Shown here: positions 1-6,689 of the stretch, one piece after another
How the letters are laid out: the number at the start of each line of letters is the position of its first letter
Numbering within the stretch: the first letter of the stretch is position 1
Assembly: GCA_031254955.1 (NCBI GenBank)
Contig: JAIRTK010000410.1
Span: 1 to 6,689, forward strand
Origin: Opitutaceae bacterium
Lineage (GTDB): Bacteria; Verrucomicrobiota; Verrucomicrobiia; Opitutales; Opitutaceae
Direction: 5' to 3'
Length of the DNA stretch: 6,689 nt
Made by a program: the position numbers and the translations under genes
The notes under the pieces: model-generated
What the model was told of the DNA's origin: nothing
Seen by the model: the letters and a program-made list of their open reading frames with translations, nothing else
Databases searched by the model: none

Positions 1-1
1 T

Positions 2-23
2 TGATTCAGTAAAAATGCCATGA
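2..23 (+). promoter_or_regulatory. Start region: in-frame stop, ATGA overlap, no clear Shine-Dalgarno
   Basis: TGA at 2-4 closes the gene's frame upstream. The bases before the ATG (A-rich, around 10-15) contain no GGAG- or AGGA-like Shine-Dalgarno sequence. The start codon overlaps a TGA at 21-23 in another frame, forming ATGA. That other frame is open from the left edge through 23, so it could be the last codons of an upstream gene translationally coupled to this one, or just a two-codon frame opened by the ATG at 15. Only 19 bases are available, so promoter elements cannot be assessed. Confidence 0.35.
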
Positions 24-145
24 AACTCCAGCCCGTCCGCCCGCGCTCTGCCGCGCGCATTTCTGCCACCCTTCACACGGGGTTTTTATCGTTCGCGTTC
101 GCGCTTGCGCTTGCGGCGCTCTTTTCCGTCTCCACGGCGCGCGCC
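20..145 (+). other. Signal peptide (residues 1-42)
   Basis: Residues 1-20 form a positively charged N-region (K2, R7, R9, R13). Residues 21-37 form a hydrophobic core rich in Phe, Ala and Leu. The motif A40-R41-A42 then fits the A-x-A rule of signal peptidase I, with Gln43 as the predicted first mature residue. The long N-region is common in large exported proteins. There is no lipobox cysteine, so it is not a lipoprotein. It directs the protein to the Sec pathway and periplasm, and it supports the ATG at 20 as the true start. Confidence 0.9.
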
Positions 146-3100
146 CAGTCCACTTGGCAGGTCACTTCCGGCCAGTGGGGCATCGGCTCGAACTGGAGCA
201 GCGGCACCGCGCCCGACATGCAGGATGCCGCCGTGCTGTTCGACAACACCGTCTTCGCCGCCAACCGCACCGTCACCGTCAACGGCGCCTACACCGCCGG
301 CTCGCTGCTGCTGCGGGGCATGGGCGGCACCACCACCACCACGTTCAACTCCGGCACGCTCAACTTCGACTCCACCGAGGCGGGCGGGGCGATTTTCCGC
401 GTGCAGGACCAAAATCACGTCACCGTCGGCTCCGCCGTCAGCCTCGGCTCCCATCTTTCCCTTATCGCCGACTTTGGCAGCGCCAGCGGCTTCTCAAACG
501 CCTTCACCATCAACGGCGCCATTCTCGGCAACGGTCACATCCTCGATGCCGTCGCCAGCAACCCCGCCTCCACCATCACCCTCGCCGGCGTCATTAGCGG
601 CGCGGGGACCCGGCTCGTCAAGTCTGGCGGCGGCGCCCTGTCCCTCACCGGCTACAACAACACCTTCGACGGCGGGCTGGAAATTTACAATGGCCGCGTC
701 AACACCGCCATTCGCGCCGGCGCCGGCAGCGGCATCGTCATCGGCGCGGAGGAAGCCGGCGCCAACAACCTCGGCGCGGGCGGCATCCTCGTCGCCAACA
801 ACGGCACCGTGCTGGCGGTCAATTCATCGGGCACCGGCCAATTTGCCGAGTTGCGCTCCGGCACGCTGGCGGTGCTGGCTGACATTTTCGGCGCGGGCCG
901 CTTTCAGCTCACCGAGGCCAGCACCGCCCACAACGGCCTCGCCTTCCGCATGACCGGCGGCGAACTCACCGGGCTGGGCGGCGTCGCCGCGGGCAGTCTG
1001 TATCTCACCGCCGCGGACTTCGACTACCACGCCGGCCTCATCACCGGCGCGCCCAACCTCGTCCTCGACACGCAGACCGCCATCAACGCGGCGAACGCCA
1101 TCACCGTCAACCTCAACGGCGCGGCCTTGGACGGCTCATTCGGCACGGTGAGCAAGCTTGGCCACAACCAACTGACGTTCAACGGCGGCGGCGTCTTCCG
1201 CGCGGAAAACCTCTTCATCACCAGCGGCAGCGGCGCGCTGAACCTGGGCGCCACGACCTTCGACCTGGCCAACGGGCTGACCCTCGGCGGCACCAACGTC
1301 GCGTTCACCAACCTGCGCACCGGCGGCACGGCGGCGGGCTGGGTCAACCTCGGCGTGGCCAATCAGCTTGGCAACTCGGCGCTGAACGCCGGCTCCGGCG
1401 CCATCGGCAACGTGTATTTGAACGGCTCCGACCAAATAGTGAACGATATTAACCTCGCCCCCGGCGCCCGCCTCGGCCTGTGGTTCAACGGCGGCGCGCC
1501 CGCGACGCTGACCGTGAACAACCTCACCGCCGACGGCGGCCCCGCCGCGCCGACCGGCGCCAACTATCTTTCCATCTATAACTGGACCGGCAACCCGGCC
1601 ACCCATCTCGGCGACGGCACCCTCGCCGCCAACGGCAACACCGTCATCGCCGGCCCCGGCGCGGACTTGGACAAAATCTGGTTTCGCGGCTACGCCCCCG
1701 GCGCGGTGGACATCGGCGGCGGCGTCCTCGCGCCGACGGACTTCCTGCACACCACTTACAGCGGTGCCGACGCCGGCAACTGGTTCGACCTCGCCAACTG
1801 GTCGGTGGATGTGCCCGACGGCGCGGGTACCGTGGTCACGATAGATTCCTCCGGCAACAAGTCCCTGCAAAACCAGACCGTCACCGTCGGTCACCTCGTG
1901 GTCAGCGGCAGCAACACCCCCGTCTTAACATCCGGCACGCTGGTCTTCGACAGTGGCGTGACCGGCGTCGCTTCCACCATCAGCGGCACGCGCGGTATTC
2001 AGATTAGTAATGCCCTGACGTTGAACAATGACTTGATTGTCGCCAACACCGGCATAACCAGTAAGGCCAATGTTTATTTGTCTGGCGCGCTCAGCGGCGG
2101 CGGCAACCTTGTTATCGGCGGTTCCAATTCCATGAGAATCTACGGGGCCATTGCCAATTACACCGGCAATATTGATCTTTCCGGCACCCTGATTTTTGGC
2201 ACTGACGGCGGAACCACCATTTCCAAGCAGTTCACCCACAGCGGCACGGTTTTTGTGCGCGACGGCGCGCGGCTGACCATTGACGAATACGACTTATTCG
2301 GCCTGCACGCTTCCGCCGCGCTCGGCAGCGCGTTGGTCATTGACGGTAATTTTGCTTTATACGGAGTCATGGTTAACTACGCCGGCGACGTGGCGCTGAC
2401 GGTCAGCCACACCATTGCCATTGGCGGCTATAGCAACGACCCCAACGCCGAGCGGAGGGCGGGTTTCAGCGGGTCAACCAATCTCGTCGGTGCCGGCGGT
2501 CTCACCGTTGCCGACGGCAACTCGGCTTTCCTGCTAAGTGACGGCAACACCTTCAGCGGCGGCCTGGTAAAAATCGGTTCCGGCGCTCTCTATACTGAGC
2601 TGCACAGCGATCTGGTCACCGGCACACTGTCAGCGGGCCACAACTACCTCGGCTTGTCGGATATAGCTATCAACAGCAACGCCAGTATTATTGTTAACAA
2701 CAACGGCTACGACGCTTATTTGCGCGGCGTGACCTCCGCCACCACCAACGGCAACTACCAGTTTATCGGCAGCGGTTCCACCATCATCAGCGGCACGATG
2801 AACTTGGCCAGTAACTCTTATGTCACCTTTAACGGTGGCGACGGCCTCATCACCGACAGCGCGGAATGGAACACCACCGCCGGCAATTCACGGATTAATT
2901 TCGATCATAACCTGACGGTGAACGCCCCGTTTCTCGGCAATGCCGTGGACCTCTACGCCAGGCCGGGCTTCGGCCAGACCTATGCGCTCACTTCCACGAT
3001 GGCGGACGGCATCGCCAACGTTGGCACGCTGACCAAGGAAAACCAAGGCACGCTGGTGCTGTCCTCCACGCTGCATTCCAGCGGTTTGAATATGTTCGGC

Positions 3101-6100
3101 GGCGTGTTCGTTCTCAACGGCAGCGAATTTATCCAGCCGCGGAGCGGCGTCGTGCCCGCCACCTCGGTGGTGATGAACGCCGGCAGTCTGTATGCCAAGG
3201 GCGGTGCCGCCGGCAGTCCGTGGTTTAACCGGTACAACAATCTCAGCATCACCGGCAATGCCGGTTTTTACCTGGAGAACCATTCCGCGCTATACTTCAA
3301 TAACCTCATCGCTTGGAGCGCGGTCAGCGGCACCAACTATTACACGCTGAACCTCGCCAACGACAGCGGCCTGTGGTCCACCGCCGGCGACCCGGCCGCT
3401 TACGACACCTACGTGTATTTCACCAGCACCACTGGCTTCGGCGGCGCCAGCGCCGTCCGGCTGAACTACGTTGCCTTTACCGGCTATGAGCGGGGCGCGG
3501 AACTGGTGCAGGTGAGCGGCAGCAACGTTTGGTTCCTTGCGCCGTCCGGGGCGCAACTCAGCGAATGGGTCGGCGCGAAGGACACGGGCGTTGACACCGA
3601 CCGCCTGTGGAGCAACGCGGCGAACTGGGTGGGCGGGGTTCCGGACGCCGCCGGTCGCGTGGCCGCTGTCCGTGACGTGGACGGACTGCTGAACGGCAAC
3701 ACCGTCATGCTGGACGCGGACGCCACCGTCGGCAAATTGTCGCTGGAAAGCGGCAACGCGCAAATCTTCACCATTGACGGCGCCAATGGCCGTGCGCTGA
3801 CGTTTGACAACAACGGCGCCCGCGCCGTGCTGGACAACAGCGGCAACCACCGCGCCACCATCAGCGCCGGTTTGCATCTGGCAAGTGACTTGGATGTCTT
3901 CACCACCACGGCGGACGCTTTGTATTTGAACGGCGCCATCAGTGGCAGCGGCGGGATTTGGTTTGGTTCCATCGGCATCCTGGGGTTTGGCGGCGCCAGC
4001 GGTGCCAGCGATTACACCGGCGGTTTTCACTTGGTCGGCAGCACCGCCACCAGCGGAGGTGGCGCGCGTCCCCACGTGATTATCGCCACCAACGGCAGTA
4101 TCTTTGGCAGCGGCAGTTACAACGGCACGGACGCGGCGGGCAGCCTCCAGCCGCTGACCGTCGGCGATGGCACGCCCAATAGATGGTACTCCATGCGGAG
4201 CGACGTGGGTGACGGAGCATATGTGATCGACGCCGCAGTGCGTATCGCCGGTAATCTGTATTTTGACAGTGCCGGTCCCTACCCCAAGTATGCCACCCTG
4301 ACCTTCCGTAGCGCCGACCCGGGGTATATCGCTTCCGGCACTTGGTCATTGCAAGGTACGAGGGGAGCTTTCGAGCTGCGCCATAATGTGATAGTGCTGG
4401 ATCAGGATCTGCAAGGCGAGACGGACAGCGCCTTGATAATCGAGAATAACGCATCGGTCAGATTTCTGGGTGACAACAGTTTCGGCGGCGGAGTTATAGT
4501 TAAAGGCAATGTCGGCATCGGCAGTGATACCGCACTTGGAACCGGCTTGGTTCAGGTAGAATCCGGCGCCCAGTTTTTTGCGTTAGGCGGCACGCGGACG
4601 ATAAGCAACGATATCCTATTCAACGCCGGTGCTTATTGGGGTGATGGTAATTTCATTTTGGCGTACAACGGCACGAGCACCATGCAGCAGTTGACCGGGT
4701 TTAGCATCGGTAACCAAGGCGAGGGCCGCGTCGTGACGGTCAACGCCGGCCATGTGCTGACCGGCCCCGGCGGCCTTCGCGTGAATGAAGGGATGCTGAT
4801 ACTACTCGGTTCCAATGCTTACACCGGCAATACCATCCTGGGGTATCGGGGGCGGCTGGCGGTCGGTGATGACCACGCGCTGGGCAGCGGGACACTGGTG
4901 TTTGATGACACAACCGTTCTTTCCTCCCATGGTGGCCCTGTCACGCTGGCCAACCCGGTGGAGTTCTATCGCCATATTGCCTATCTGGACGGCTCGGCCG
5001 GCTTGCTCACGCTTGACCCCGCCGCTGGCGCAATCATGGGCACCAGCCCCAATCTAACCATTAGGGCCACCGGCAGCGTCGGGTTCGGGTCGAATCTTGC
5101 CATCAGCGGCACGGTCAACGTCACCAAGGAAGGCGCCGGGACGCTGATCCTTGCCAGCGGCAGCAGCGATTACTCCGGCACGACCACGCTCACGCAAGGC
5201 ACGCTGCGGGTGAACGCGGGCGGGGACATCACGCTGGGTCGCGCCGCCGCCGGTGAGAATTATCTCGGCACCGGCGGCGTGCGGGCGAACGGCACGGTGC
5301 GGCTGGAACTGGTGACCGGTGACGGGAACGCGGTGCATCTGGGCGGCAATCTGGACTTGAACGGCTACTATGACAACCAAACCGGCGAACTGCGGATCAC
5401 CGACGCGGCGGACGTGGTGAGCGGGACCAACATCAAAGTTTACCTCGACCCGGTGGTCAGCGCCACCCTCGGCGGCAACACCTTCGGCCACCTGCGCGCG
5501 CCCGGCGACATCATCAAAACCGGCACCGGCACGCTGACCTGGACGGGCGGCAACATCGTCACCGGCGCCGGCAAAAGTTTCATCATGGAGGAAGGGGTGT
5601 TGAACTGGAGCAACAACCTCGCGCAACTGACCGCCGGCGGGCTGGAGGTGCAATCCGGCACGGTGAACATCGGCGCGACCATGACGCAGAACGGCATCCA
5701 GCGCATCACGCTGGGCGACGGCGCGGTGCTCAATCTGGCGGGCCACACCTTCACGGGGACGAACATCATCCTCGCGCTCGCGGGCAGCGCGACCATCGAC
5801 CTGGGCGACACCGGGCGGCTGACGCTGGGCGGCATCGACGGCGGGGCGTGGAACGGCTCGCTGGCGGTGGCGGGCTGGGCCGGCGACCCGGCCAGCGGCA
5901 ACGGGACGACGCAGGTGCGCTTCACGCAGGACGTGCTCGCGGCGCTGACGCCGGCGCAACTGGCGGCGGTGCGGTTTTTCTCCAACACCCCCGGCCTCGG
6001 CTACGCGGCGGGCTCGCGCCTGGCGCGCAACGCGGCGGGCTTCTACGAACTGCTGCCGATGGGCGTGACGACGGAATGGCTGGGCGGCGGCGTGGGCGAC

Positions 6101-6689
6101 AACTGGAGCGTGTCGGCAAACTGGCAAAACAACGTGCCGCCCAACGGGGCCGGCTCCATCGCCATCTTCGGCGACCTCGACCCGACGCTGGACGGGGCGG
6201 TGGTGCCGATCGACGTGGCGCTGACCCTGGGCGGCTTCGTGTTCAACAACACGGCCGGGGCGGACTTCGCCATCGACGGCGGCTTCATGACGCTGGACGG
6301 CGGCGCGGCGGACGCGATGATCACGCTCACCGGCGACAGCGACGTGGAAATCAAGGTGACCGACATCCAGCTCGTCAGCGACCTCGACATCATCCACGAC
6401 GGCACCGGCACGCTCACCCTCAGCGGCCAACTCACCGGCACGGACGGCACGGCCAGCACGGCCAGCCTGCTCAAAAGCGGCTCCGGCACGCTCGTGCTCG
6501 CCAACGCGAATAACATTTTCACCGGCGGAGTGACGCTCCTCGGCGGCGCCATCGAGACCTCCGCGAGCACCGCCGGCGCCGCCGGCTCGGTGACAGCCGG
6601 CCCGCTCGGCACCGGCACGCTCACCGCCGGCGCCGACGCCGCGCTGGTGTTCACCGCCGCCGGCGCGCAGACCATTAACAACGCCCTCA
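20..6689 (+). CDS. Giant PATR-type secreted surface protein, 3' partial
   Basis: One uninterrupted frame of 2,223 codons runs off the right edge; I read every row in this frame and found no stop or frameshift. The start is well fixed: the frame has a TGA at 2-4, no start codon between it and the ATG at 20, and a signal peptide begins at that ATG. The mature part is Gly/Ala/Thr/Asn/Ser-rich with alternating hydrophobic residues, as expected of a beta-helix, and carries several autotransporter-associated beta-strand repeats (PF12951/TIGR02601 type). It is built from four successive units, each opened by a W-x4-N-W-x(4-5)-P signature. It has no cysteine and only about 20 lysines. Family knowledge suggests an exported passenger or adhesin-like protein on the cell surface. 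The anchor (type V barrel, PEP-CTERM or other) would be downstream and is not seen. No catalytic motif is recognised, so the specific function is unknown. Confidence 0.95.
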   Translation, partial: MKLQPVRPRSAARISATLHTGFLSFAFALALAALFSVSTARAQSTWQVTSGQWGIGSNWSSGTAPDMQDAAVLFDNTVFAANRTVTVNGAYTAGSLLLRGMGGTTTTTFNSGTLNFDSTEAGGAIFRVQDQNHVTVGSAVSLGSHLSLIADFGSASGFSNAFTINGAILGNGHILDAVASNPASTITLAGVISGAGTRLVKSGGGALSLTGYNNTFDGGLEIYNGRVNTAIRAGAGSGIVIGAEEAGANNLGAGGILVANNGTVLAVNSSGTGQFAELRSGTLAVLADIFGAGRFQLTEASTAHNGLAFRMTGGELTGLGGVAAGSLYLTAADFDYHAGLITGAPNLVLDTQTAINAANAITVNLNGAALDGSFGTVSKLGHNQLTFNGGGVFRAENLFITSGSGALNLGATTFDLANGLTLGGTNVAFTNLRTGGTAAGWVNLGVANQLGNSALNAGSGAIGNVYLNGSDQIVNDINLAPGARLGLWFNGGAPATLTVNNLTADGGPAAPTGANYLSIYNWTGNPATHLGDGTLAANGNTVIAGPGADLDKIWFRGYAPGAVDIGGGVLAPTDFLHTTYSGADAGNWFDLANWSVDVPDGAGTVVTIDSSGNKSLQNQTVTVGHLVVSGSNTPVLTSGTLVFDSGVTGVASTISGTRGIQISNALTLNNDLIVANTGITSKANVYLSGALSGGGNLVIGGSNSMRIYGAIANYTGNIDLSGTLIFGTDGGTTISKQFTHSGTVFVRDGARLTIDEYDLFGLHASAALGSALVIDGNFALYGVMVNYAGDVALTVSHTIAIGGYSNDPNAERRAGFSGSTNLVGAGGLTVADGNSAFLLSDGNTFSGGLVKIGSGALYTELHSDLVTGTLSAGHNYLGLSDIAINSNASIIVNNNGYDAYLRGVTSATTNGNYQFIGSGSTIISGTMNLASNSYVTFNGGDGLITDSAEWNTTAGNSRINFDHNLTVNAPFLGNAVDLYARPGFGQTYALTSTMADGIANVGTLTKENQGTLVLSSTLHSSGLNMFGGVFVLNGSEFIQPRSGVVPATSVVMNAGSLYAKGGAAGSPWFNRYNNLSITGNAGFYLENHSALYFNNLIAWSAVSGTNYYTLNLANDSGLWSTAGDPAAYDTYVYFTSTTGFGGASAVRLNYVAFTGYERGAELVQVSGSNVWFLAPSGAQLSEWVGAKDTGVDTDRLWSNAANWVGGVPDAAGRVAAVRDVDGLLNGNTVMLDADATVGKLSLESGNAQIFTIDGANGRALTFDNNGARAVLDNSGNHRATISAGLHLASDLDVFTTTADALYLNGAISGSGGIWFGSIGILGFGGASGASDYTGGFHLVGSTATSGGGARPHVIIATNGSIFGSGSYNGTDAAGSLQPLTVGDGTPNRWYSMRSDVGDGAYVIDAAVRIAGNLYFDSAGPYPKYATLTFRSADPGYIASGTWSLQGTRGAFELRHNVIVLDQDLQGETDSALIIENNASVRFLGDNSFGGGVIVKGNVGIGSDTALGTGLVQVESGAQFFALGGTRTISNDILFNAGAYWGDGNFILAYNGTSTMQQLTGFSIGNQGEGRVVTVNAGHVLTGPGGLRVNEGMLILLGSNAYTGNTILGYRGRLAVGDDHALGSGTLVFDDTTVLSSHGGPVTLANPVEFYRHIAYLDGSAGLLTLDPAAGAIMGTSPNLTIRATGSVGFGSNLAISGTVNVTKEGAGTLILASGSSDYSGTTTLTQGTLRVNAGGDITLGRAAAGENYLGTGGVRANGTVRLELVTGDGNAVHLGGNLDLNGYYDNQTGELRITDAADVVSGTNIKVYLDPVVSATLGGNTFGHLRAPGDIIKTGTGTLTWTGGNIVTGAGKSFIMEEGVLNWSNNLAQLTAGGLEVQSGTVNIGATMTQNGIQRITLGDGAVLNLAGHTFTGTNIILALAGSATIDLGDTGRLTLGGIDGGAWNGSLAVAGWAGDPASGNGTTQVRFTQDVLAALTPAQLAAVRFFSNTPGLGYAAGSRLARNAAGFYELLPMGVTTEWLGGGVGDNWSVSANWQNNVPPNGAGSIAIFGDLDPTLDGAVVPIDVALTLGGFVFNNTAGADFAIDGGFMTLDGGAADAMITLTGDSDVEIKVTDIQLVSDLDIIHDGTGTLTLSGQLTGTDGTASTASLLKSGSGTLVLANANNIFTGGVTLLGGAIETSASTAGAAGSVTAGPLGTGTLTAGADAALVFTAAGAQTINNAL
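152..247 (+). repeat. Unit 1 opening module: Trp signature (residues 45-76)
   Basis: First of four copies of the opening signature, placed at the mature N-terminus. Key residues are W46, W53, N58, W59 and P65, i.e. W-x4-N-W followed by Pro six residues after the last Trp. It ends in a hydrophobic strand (AAVLF, 70-74). The next segment has a TVTV strand (84-87) and a GSLLLRG strand-turn (94-100), and the same order follows the other copies. It is probably the N-cap of a beta-helix unit. The role is inferred from position and repetition. Confidence 0.8.
614..697 (+). repeat. PATR repeat 1 (residues 199-226)
   Basis: This matches the PATR pattern of L-x-K-x-G-x-G-x-L-x-L-x-G, then N-x-(Y/F)-x-GG and a closing G-x-(L/V). 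Visible positions are L199, K201, G203, G205, L207, L209, G211, N214, F216, G218, G219 and G225. PATR segments are short beta-strand pairs forming rungs of the passenger beta-helix. The upstream strand ITLAGVISGAG (186-196) is the usual lead-in. Confidence 0.85.
1145..1192 (+). repeat. Degenerate PATR-like segment (residues 376-391)
   Basis: The segment TVSKLGHNQLTFNGGG keeps the K-x-G-x-x-x-L-x-F-x-G skeleton of a PATR core (K379, G381, L385, F387, G389), but the second half (N-x-Y-x-GG) is not clear. It is probably a diverged rung of the same helix. It could also be a chance resemblance in a Gly-rich protein. Confidence 0.45.
1568..1738 (+). repeat. Unit 1 closing segment (residues 517-573)
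   Basis: A non-PATR segment directly before the second Trp signature. It holds an aromatic strand with W522-T-G, then a D-L-D-K-I-W-F strand ending at F555, the turn G557-Y558-A-P-G561-A562, and a glycine-rich run ending in P572. The order matches two later segments before Trp signatures 3 and 4: hydrophobic strand ending in Phe, Gly-Tyr or similar, Gly-Ala or Gly-Ser, then Pro. A comparable segment is familiar near the C-terminal end of PATR proteins in Verrucomicrobiota, so here it probably caps unit 1. Confidence 0.6.
1754..1846 (+). repeat. Unit 2 opening module: Trp signature (residues 579-609)
   Basis: Second copy of the opening signature, with Y580 in place of the first Trp, then W588, N593, W594 and P599. 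The W-x4-N-W spacing is identical to the other copies, with Pro five residues after the last Trp. A VVTI strand (605-608) follows, then a TVTV strand at 620-623 and HLVVSG at 625-630, mirroring unit 1. It lies only six residues after the proline of the unit 1 closing segment. Confidence 0.8.
2087..2185 (+). repeat. Diverged PATR of unit 2 (residues 690-722)
   Basis: The lead-in ALSGGGNLVIGG is followed by a short strand and then N-Y-T-G-N-I-D-L-S-G (713-722), matching the N-x-Y-x-G-x second half of a PATR. The K-x-G-x-G core is replaced by G-G-S-N. It sits at the same place relative to the Trp signature as PATR 1 does in unit 1. The surrounding bases are lower in GC than the flanks. Confidence 0.6.
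2483..2590 (+). repeat. PATR repeat of unit 2 (residues 822-857)
   Basis: G824-A-G-G-L828-T-V forms the first strand, L838-L839 the second, and G842-N843-T844-F845-S846-G847-G848 the typical N-T-(F/Y)-S-GG turn, closing with G855-A-L857. The usual lysine before the glycines is missing. The N-T-F-S-G-G element makes this a confident family member. Confidence 0.75.
3026..3121 (+). repeat. Partial PATR of unit 2 (residues 1003-1034)
   Basis: T1003-L-T-K1006-E-N-Q-G1010-T-L-V-L1014 is a good first half (L-x-K-x-x-x-G-T-L-x-L). The second half reads S-S-G-L-N-M-F-G-G-V-F-V-L-N-G and keeps G1027-G1028 but lacks the N-x-Y element. It is probably an eroded rung toward the end of unit 2. Confidence 0.65.
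3407..3547 (+). repeat. Unit 2 closing segment (residues 1130-1176)
   Basis: Matches the closing segment of unit 1 in order: strand L-N-Y-V-A-F ending at F1153, turn G1155-Y1156-E-R-G1159-A1160, then E-L-V-Q-V and a final strand ending at P1175. It is followed after seven residues by the first Trp of signature 3. The shared F-x-G-Y-x-x-G-A pattern with unit 1 (F555 to A562) is the best evidence that these segments are related. Confidence 0.6.
3563..3673 (+). repeat. Unit 3 opening module: Trp signature (residues 1182-1218)
   Basis: Third copy: W1183, then W1197, N1202, W1203 and P1208, again W-x4-N-W with Pro five residues later. The distance between the first and second Trp is longer here (14 residues against 7-9). 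A hydrophobic strand (RVAAV, 1213-1217), a TVML strand (1228-1231) and GKLSLESG follow, in the same order as after the other copies. Confidence 0.8.
3932..4039 (+). repeat. Diverged PATR of unit 3 (residues 1305-1340)
   Basis: The lead-in G1305-A-I-S-G-S-G-G-I parallels the lead-ins of units 1 and 2. It is followed by L-G-F-G-G and S-D-Y-T-G-G (1330-1335), then F-H-L-V-G. The second half fits the (D/N)-Y-x-GG turn of a PATR, while the central K-x-G-x-G core is lost. Its position in unit 3 corresponds to PATR 1 in unit 1. Confidence 0.6.
4532..4630 (+). repeat. LGTG / TISN companion repeat (residues 1505-1537)
   Basis: A1505-L-G-T-G-L-V-Q-V, then S-G-A-Q-F, then G-G-T-R-T1527-I-S-N1530-D-I-L-F. 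This A-L-G-T-G ... T-I-S-N-x-I element is the usual partner following PATR turns in this family and forms the next helix rungs. It falls within the lower-GC stretch of the gene. Confidence 0.7.
4772..4858 (+). repeat. PATR repeat of unit 3, first clear copy (residues 1585-1613)
   Basis: G1585-L-R-V-N-E-G-M-L-I-L-L-G, then S-N-A-Y-T-G-N-T (1598-1605), then a closing strand ending G-R-L1613. It matches the PATR consensus with N1599, Y1601 and G1603; the second Gly is replaced by Asn. It begins a C-terminal zone of unit 3 where PATRs are well conserved. Confidence 0.8.
4877..4966 (+). repeat. LGSG companion repeat (residues 1620-1649)
   Basis: A1620-L-G-S-G-T-L-V-F, then G-G-P-V-T1642-L-A-N1645-P-V-E-F. 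This is the same companion element as at residues 1505-1537, with T-L-A-N-P-V for T-I-S-N-D-I. It directly follows the PATR at 1585-1613, giving the canonical order of PATR then LGxG element. Confidence 0.7.
5120..5212 (+). repeat. PATR repeat of unit 3, best copy (residues 1701-1731)
   Basis: The most canonical PATR in the window. V1701-T-K1703-E-G-A-G-T-L-I-L matches the L-x-K-x-G-x-G-T-L-x-L core, S-D-Y1718-S-G-T-T-T-L-T-Q-G1727-T-L-R-V matches the Y-S-G-x-T-x-(V/L)-x-x-G-T-L half. It is the main support for assigning the whole protein to the PATR family. An L-G-T-G-G element follows at about 1750. Confidence 0.92.
5510..5608 (+). repeat. PATR repeat of unit 3, last copy (residues 1831-1863)
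   Basis: I1831-I-K1833-T-G-T-G-T-L-T-W is a full first half. The second half reads I-V-T-G-A-G-K-S-F-I-M-E-E-G1859-V-L-N-W, keeping G-x-L spacing but not the N-x-Y element. It is the last repeat before the unit 3 closing segment. Confidence 0.8.
5861..6064 (+). repeat. Unit 3 closing segment with LTPAQL motif (residues 1948-2015)
   Basis: Starts with a strand and G-W1953, then T-Q-V-R-F, then L1976-T-P-A-Q-L-A-A-V-R-F-F (1976-1987), a P-G-L-G-Y-A-A-G-S turn and F-Y-E-L-L-P2013. An LTxAQLxxIRF element followed by a Gly-rich turn and E-L/I-x-P is, from family knowledge, typical of the very end of PATR passengers just before the sorting signal. Here it is internal and is followed five residues later by the fourth Trp signature. 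It aligns in order with the closing segments of units 1 and 2. Confidence 0.7.
6071..6172 (+). repeat. Unit 4 opening module: Trp signature (residues 2018-2051)
   Basis: Fourth copy: W2020, W2029, N2034, W2035 and P2040, again W-x4-N-W with Pro five residues later. The strand S-I-A-I-F (2046-2050) matches AAVLF of unit 1. A V-P-I-D-V strand and T-L-G-G-F-V-F-N-N follow, in the order seen in the other units. Codons here strongly favour G-ending forms, unlike the unit 1 copy. Confidence 0.82.
6467..6553 (+). repeat. PATR repeat of unit 4 (residues 2150-2178)
   Basis: L2150-L-K2152-S-G-S-G-T-L-V-L, then A-N-N-I-F2167-T-G-G-V-T-L-L-G-G-A-I matches the PATR consensus almost throughout, with K2152, G2154, G2156, N2165, F2167, G2169 and G2170. 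A half-copy, I-I-H-D-G-T-G-T-L-T-L, precedes it at 2124-2134. Its place after the Trp signature corresponds to PATR 1 of unit 1. Confidence 0.9.
6602..6689 (+). repeat. LGTG / TINN companion repeat, cut by window edge (residues 2195-2223)
   Basis: P2195-L-G-T-G-T-L-T-A-G, then A-L-V-F and Q-T2218-I-N-N-A-L2223. This is the same element as at residues 1505-1537 and 1620-1649, following the unit 4 PATR in canonical order. The window ends inside it, so unit 4 and the protein clearly continue. Confidence 0.75.

Follow-up and report, generated by a model that had tools for sequence, protein, structure and literature searches.

Four homologous units at the head of a likely giant autotransporter in an Opitutaceae bacterium

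The window analyzed here – all 6,689 bases of contig JAIRTK010000410.1 (C280) of the Opitutaceae bacterium assembly GCA_031254955.1 – is an entire contig. The genome is fragmented into 574 contigs totalling 3.58 Mb and is 68.7% complete. A single frame spans nearly all of the window with no stop codon before the contig's 3' end. We propose that this frame probably encodes the four homologous N-terminal units of a giant type Va autotransporter with an adhesin role; the unit architecture itself is well supported. Units 1 to 3 follow one another as a chain, and unit 4 stands at the start of what lies past them. The missing C-terminus would, going by full-length relatives, consist of a variable, PATR-rich stalk and a PF03797 barrel. 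As a class, autotransporter passengers emerge C-terminus first, so the four-unit head would sit at the far tip, where four different units on one stalk could present several contact surfaces towards gut material. Since the contig stops before any anchor, we infer the secretion, tip position, and adhesion of the window copy.

Opening and closing modules

The original prediction described four copies of a tryptophan signature dividing the protein into units. We found W-x4-N-W-x(4-6)-P at residues 53, 588, 1197, and 2029 of frame 20-6688, exactly where predicted, with an Asn before the second Trp and a Pro 5-6 residues later (Table 1). Composition alone, considered an unlikely cause in the original prediction, does not explain this: the motif occurs 4 times against a maximum of 1 (mean 0.0015) in 20,000 composition shuffles, and a composition artefact is ruled out by these shuffles together with the profile controls below. 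The accompanying remark that Trp is otherwise sparse was incorrect, as the protein has 28 in 2223 residues (1.3%), several others lying in the closing modules described below (W488, W522, W554, W1068, W1099, W1119, W1171, W1944, and W1953).

Every signature begins an opening module of about 150 residues. A self-alignment of the units, the check proposed for this plan, succeeded in part with single sequences. BLASTP between unit segments was significant and in register for 3 of the 6 pairs (units 2-3, 8e-8; units 3-4, 1e-9; units 1-4, 4e-4), while units 1-2 (0.055) and 1-3 (0.21) were weak though in register and units 2-4 gave an in-register alignment of only ~20 residues (0.19-0.55). Weak matches out of register were also seen between units (best 0.008-0.08). 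With profiles built from 27 four-unit proteins, however, all six opening-module pairs gave HHalign probabilities of 98.5-99.7, compared to at most 12.9 for opening against closing modules (12 pairs) and at most 48.6 for opening modules against mid-unit segments (28 pairs). After each signature, a later T-x-G-x-(L/F) strand is common to all four units; the TVTV-like strand noted originally is shared just loosely. As for the PATR-like segment said to follow each signature, PATR matched 13 of the 30 opening modules (E up to 10), probably within the tails of these modules.

On sequence profiles, units 1 to 3 each carry a second, closing module of ~130 residues immediately ahead of the next signature. 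These modules read LSIYNWTGNP...IWFRGYAPGAVD in unit 1, LNLANDSGLW...FTGYERGAELV..WFLAPSG in unit 2, and LAVAGWAGDP...RF...GYAAGSRL..YELLP in unit 3, and are homologous to each other (HHalign 97.1-98.6). A mid-unit profile, mid11, gave 98.7 with closing module 1 and a partial match (51.1) with closing module 3, but its slice overlaps the unit 1 closing module and is not a clean control for closings.

A closing profile derived from the giant proteins was then searched in other multi-unit and PEP-CTERM proteins. In seven further multi-unit proteins (L086-L089, L096, L098, and L099) it lies immediately ahead of the following opening; it was not found between the openings of L082, L090, L133, L137, L138, L139, and L142. 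Of 19 PEP-CTERM proteins containing one to three units, 10 have it ahead of PEP-CTERM. These comprise 4 of 10 single-module proteins (L092, L093, L095, and L101; not found before PEP-CTERM in the L082 second frame, L094, L100, L102, L140, and L143) and 6 of the 9 that have two or three modules (not found there in L082, L090, and L133). L095 (649 aa) and L101 (571 aa) are one-unit proteins of roughly the size of unit 1, consisting of an opening module, a closing module, and PEP-CTERM, which is why we regard a unit as resembling a whole passenger.

Beyond opening 4, frames that reach a stop codon continue for 572 to 8,883 residues. No closing module for unit 4 is visible in the window, and none was clear in the relatives. 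A faint closing-like match (E 6e-5 to 0.01) lies ~994-1021 residues past opening 4 in L031, L032, L075, and L129-L132, and was not seen in the intact L128; in one subfamily it may represent the unit 4 closing.

As originally suggested, a series of complete passenger-like units that each bear an N-cap fits these data better than one uniform repeat field: the openings and closings are homologous, one-unit proteins exist, and structural matches rarely cross unit boundaries. Each unit is predicted to fold into a separate beta-helix capped by its opening and closing modules. Autotransporter passengers are usually one helix, and a single continuous PATR beta-helix, with the Trp motifs as surface insertions rather than unit starts, would also suit the similarity of mid-unit segments between units (many HHalign pairs above 90). 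A few structural matches of the predicted models do span a boundary, among them the best match of the unit-2 model. Yet such matches make up just 1 of 50 and 3 of 50 rows, in agreement with the structural expectation of the original prediction as far as predicted models go, and a continuous helix does not sit well with closings that directly precede openings or with one-unit proteins, so we consider it improbable.

Pfam names PATR as the sole family in the window protein; the original prediction held that the unit plan goes beyond the PATR family description. The curated PF12951 and TIGR02601 cut-offs were passed (47.1 bits against 27 and 49.7 against 19.85, respectively) with five stretches each. 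PATR is reportedly the subject of Doyle et al. 2015, as a secretion-efficiency repeat. Giant genes of this kind are labelled by PATR repeats only, and because of this their domain plan is hidden from annotation. The TPS domain PF05860 was not found in the window protein in a Pfam scan at E up to 10, and family scans of this protein for a known adhesive domain plus a stalk domain returned PATR / autotrns_rpt alone. Searches of solved structures gave no convincing match for the opening module (best E 0.041), and the best E with the window protein was 0.43. An antisense open frame (window 5054-6688, - strand, 544 aa, open) is likely a by-product of G+C-rich codon usage.

Table 1. Features of the window and its protein
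Feature	Window positions	Residues	Strand	Basis
Open reading frame	20..6688	2223 aa	+	counted from first in-frame ATG; 3' end lost at contig end
Putative Sec-type signal peptide	20..145	1-42	+	visual inspection: basic N-terminus, core FALALAALFSV, A-R-A preceding Q43
Trp signature 1	176..214	W53-P65	+	motif search; second Trp W59
Trp signature 2	1781..1816	W588-P599	+	motif search; second Trp W594
Trp signature 3	3608..3643	W1197-P1208	+	motif search; second Trp W1203
Trp signature 4	6104..6142	W2029-P2041	+	motif search; second Trp W2035
Opening module, unit 1	146..628	43-203	+	alignments, profile comparison
Opening module, unit 2	1748..2203	577-728	+	alignments, profile comparison
Opening module, unit 3	3557..4057	1180-1346	+	alignments, profile comparison
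Opening module, unit 4	6068..6562	2017-2181	+	alignments, profile comparison
Closing module, unit 1	1349..1750	444-577	+	profile comparison
Closing module, unit 2	3158..3556	1047-1179	+	profile comparison
Closing module, unit 3	5666..6067	1883-2016	+	profile comparison
Best PATR repeat (1 of five stretches counted)	5120..5212	1701-1731	+	PF12951/TIGR02601 scan

Relatives and their anchors

We define a four-unit head family here by openings that start at about residues 28-174, 557-778, 1125-1520, and 1960-2500, a family to which the window protein belongs. Four opening modules were found in 27 frames including the window, at near-constant spacing (means 579, 613, and 843 residues). In the same genome, C113 carries a paralogue that also has all four signatures; this 3725-aa frame is open at either end and is 54.7% identical over 2282 columns. 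Part of a third copy, with three openings spaced as in units 1-3, lies on C422. A genome scan gave six loci, from Ereboglobus sp. PH5-10 (three), an Ereboglobus metagenome-assembled genome (MAG; two), and a Puniceicoccales MAG (one). A genome from the window's genus, G046 (apparent Termitidicoccus mucosus), has at least nine four-unit frames, one of them 10,954 aa long (L063). The latter runs unbroken from L063 1325-20000 on into L064 to 14186 and has a barrel end; its first part is public as a 2,820-aa 'partial' T. mucosus protein (P0002), 100% identical to L063 over 2820 aa. Elsewhere, a 2,867-aa frame with the same barrel-like end (L028 499-9099) lies directly upstream of a four-unit gene, making tandem giant genes. 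In L074, L075, L091 (three modules seen), L131, L132, and L071, four-unit genes are split over frames or stop before the barrel, which may reflect decay, phase variation, or sequence error.

The opening module by itself is widespread, being found in 83 of 150 Opitutaceae genomes (E <= 1e-6). A query of unit 3 plus opening 4 matched 7 of these 150 genomes, in 3 of 49 genera (those of the window, Ereboglobus, and the termite-hindgut strain TAV5). A class-level scan, in which two candidates were scored per genome, found it in at least 5 of 384 genomes and added a genus of another family (three genomes), with no Akkermansia-like genome among those listed. Another class-level lineage (G581:C2:3960-7040; f97, g269) matches units 3-4 within a 6,192-aa frame. 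The search of Verrucomicrobiota suggested by the original prediction was productive, the opening profile matching 111 of 387 genomes in a phylum sample (E <= 1e-8), eight of them in genus g67. We take g67 to be Akkermansia because one of its genomes, G180, holds an Amuc_1100 orthologue (PDB 6lad, 2.6e-162), Amuc tags being presumably those of A. muciniphila. Among the five g67 genomes with the strongest matches, a single frame of L128 (5386 aa) and of L130 (a stretch without its 5' end) contains four openings plus a barrel; the L132 frame also has four openings but stops ahead of any barrel; L129 (a stretch without the gene start) has three; and in L131 the openings are split over two frames. 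A protein search with L128 returned 83 proteins. Each of the 13 strongest (P0011-P0023, among them copies of L069 and L031) carries four openings spaced similarly, compared to none of the 70 weaker matches (P0024-P0093, mostly generic PATR proteins).

Apart from the window, 7 of the 26 four-unit frames run off their stretch and 19 reach a stop codon, of which 14 end in a barrel, 3 in PEP-CTERM (L030, L079, and L080), and 2 in neither (L071, with a barrel in a later frame, and L072). All 14 barrel-like ends scanned, chosen by their ending in RRLW or RRFW, matched PF03797, as did L128 and P0003. The PEP-CTERM ends match PF07589 above the Pfam cut-off, and it is conceivable that the window copy is likewise fixed to the surface via PEP-CTERM/exosortase and not a barrel: its C-terminus lies beyond the contig end (residue 2223), and L030 is roughly as close to it (39% identity, 1233 bits) as are several others. 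Against this, 7 of the 9 four-unit frames of G046 end in a scanned PF03797 barrel and no PEP-CTERM end was found among the nine, with L071 and L072 ending in neither. We therefore think a PEP-CTERM anchor unlikely and favor the autotransporter barrel for the window copy.

Given that three relatives carry it on a PEP-CTERM protein, the head seems to be a cassette that does not depend on its anchor. P0003 is 52.8% identical to L079 (TAV5) over 2282 columns and has an ESPR signal and a barrel where L079 has PEP-CTERM, so the head has changed anchors. The ESPR signal is usual in Proteobacteria; the closest relatives of P0003, L079 and L080, are PEP-CTERM proteins, a possible transfer to another phylum.

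History of the four-unit array

Trees of the opening modules sort largely by unit number and not by protein. In the careful tree, some pairings repeat from unit to unit: L128 sits next to P0018 throughout the four units, and L079 and P0003 are paired in units 1, 3, and 4 and close in unit 2. No unit is cleanly separated from the rest by a single branch; such a separation appears in 0-12% of bootstrap trees. For the starred branches, two trees force no second origin and one does, with split-gene pieces labelled 'other' in that tree. The simplest reading would be one ancestral array of four, which seems to have been inherited as a block rather than by recent tandem expansion. A recent expansion of one unit, in which the number four has no meaning, might be read from the homology of the units and from proteins with two or three of them. 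However, same-numbered units from different genera cluster together, not the units of one protein, and the spacing is conserved; we find such an expansion highly implausible and reject recent tandem duplication as the origin of the four units on the module trees. In a second multi-unit family (L086, L088, and L089), three openings occur at other spacings with PEP-CTERM ends, and its modules group apart from the four-unit family in the module tree.

Known systems and wider meaning

A broader and more speculative reading, which we advance tentatively, is a polypassenger head: four capped beta-helical passengers in fixed order, each presenting a surface of its own, possibly kept as one cassette in gut Verrucomicrobiota from insect symbionts to Akkermansia, on two unrelated anchors (type V barrel and PEP-CTERM), as a shared device for host or polymer attachment. 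Because the four-unit plan is shared by Akkermansia-like genomes and an apparent termite-gut strain, it becomes a candidate, and testable, Verrucomicrobiota colonisation factor. The opening and closing profiles cut the giant proteins into pieces of ~500-850 residues that could be expressed and solved singly, and the change of anchor beneath one head lets autotransport be compared with PEP-CTERM display.

Within the open full-text literature, subscription journals and preprints aside, no title or abstract start among the papers listed concerned a four-unit passenger, and term searches of PMC3419190 and PMC11573778 gave no hits. The outer-membrane proteome of A. muciniphila includes nine proteins with an autotransporter barrel (PMC4960237), and a study of Akkermansia evolution mentions two putative autotransporters, of which one has an adhesin passenger (PMC10540074). 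The four-unit protein may be among these. A four-unit head is not described in the available portions of the two papers, nor in those of a fibrillar adhesin-like protein survey (PMC8286594). The survey's top list includes Ereboglobus luteus (10) and Opitutaceae bacterium TSB47 (17) as organisms rich in such adhesin-like proteins. Like fibrillar adhesin-like proteins, those described here are long, repeat-built, anchored surface proteins of the same or related organisms; the survey used known Pfam adhesive and stalk domains, and the part available to us mentions neither a four-unit head nor PATR. Some PEP-CTERM beta-strand-repeat proteins of Verrucomicrobiota have an opening and a closing module in the same order, but those examined contain one to three units, with the exception of the four-unit L030, L079, and L080. 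Also among the closest known systems are PATR-type (type Va) autotransporters such as Brucella BmaA and BmaB, which have 5 and 6 PATR, respectively, according to the accessible text of PMC8111173. PATR repeats, a predicted beta-helical passenger, and, in most full-length relatives, a PF03797 barrel are shared with these proteins, whereas the giants described here differ in having a four-unit head that is fixed and in their length of up to 10,954 aa (L063).
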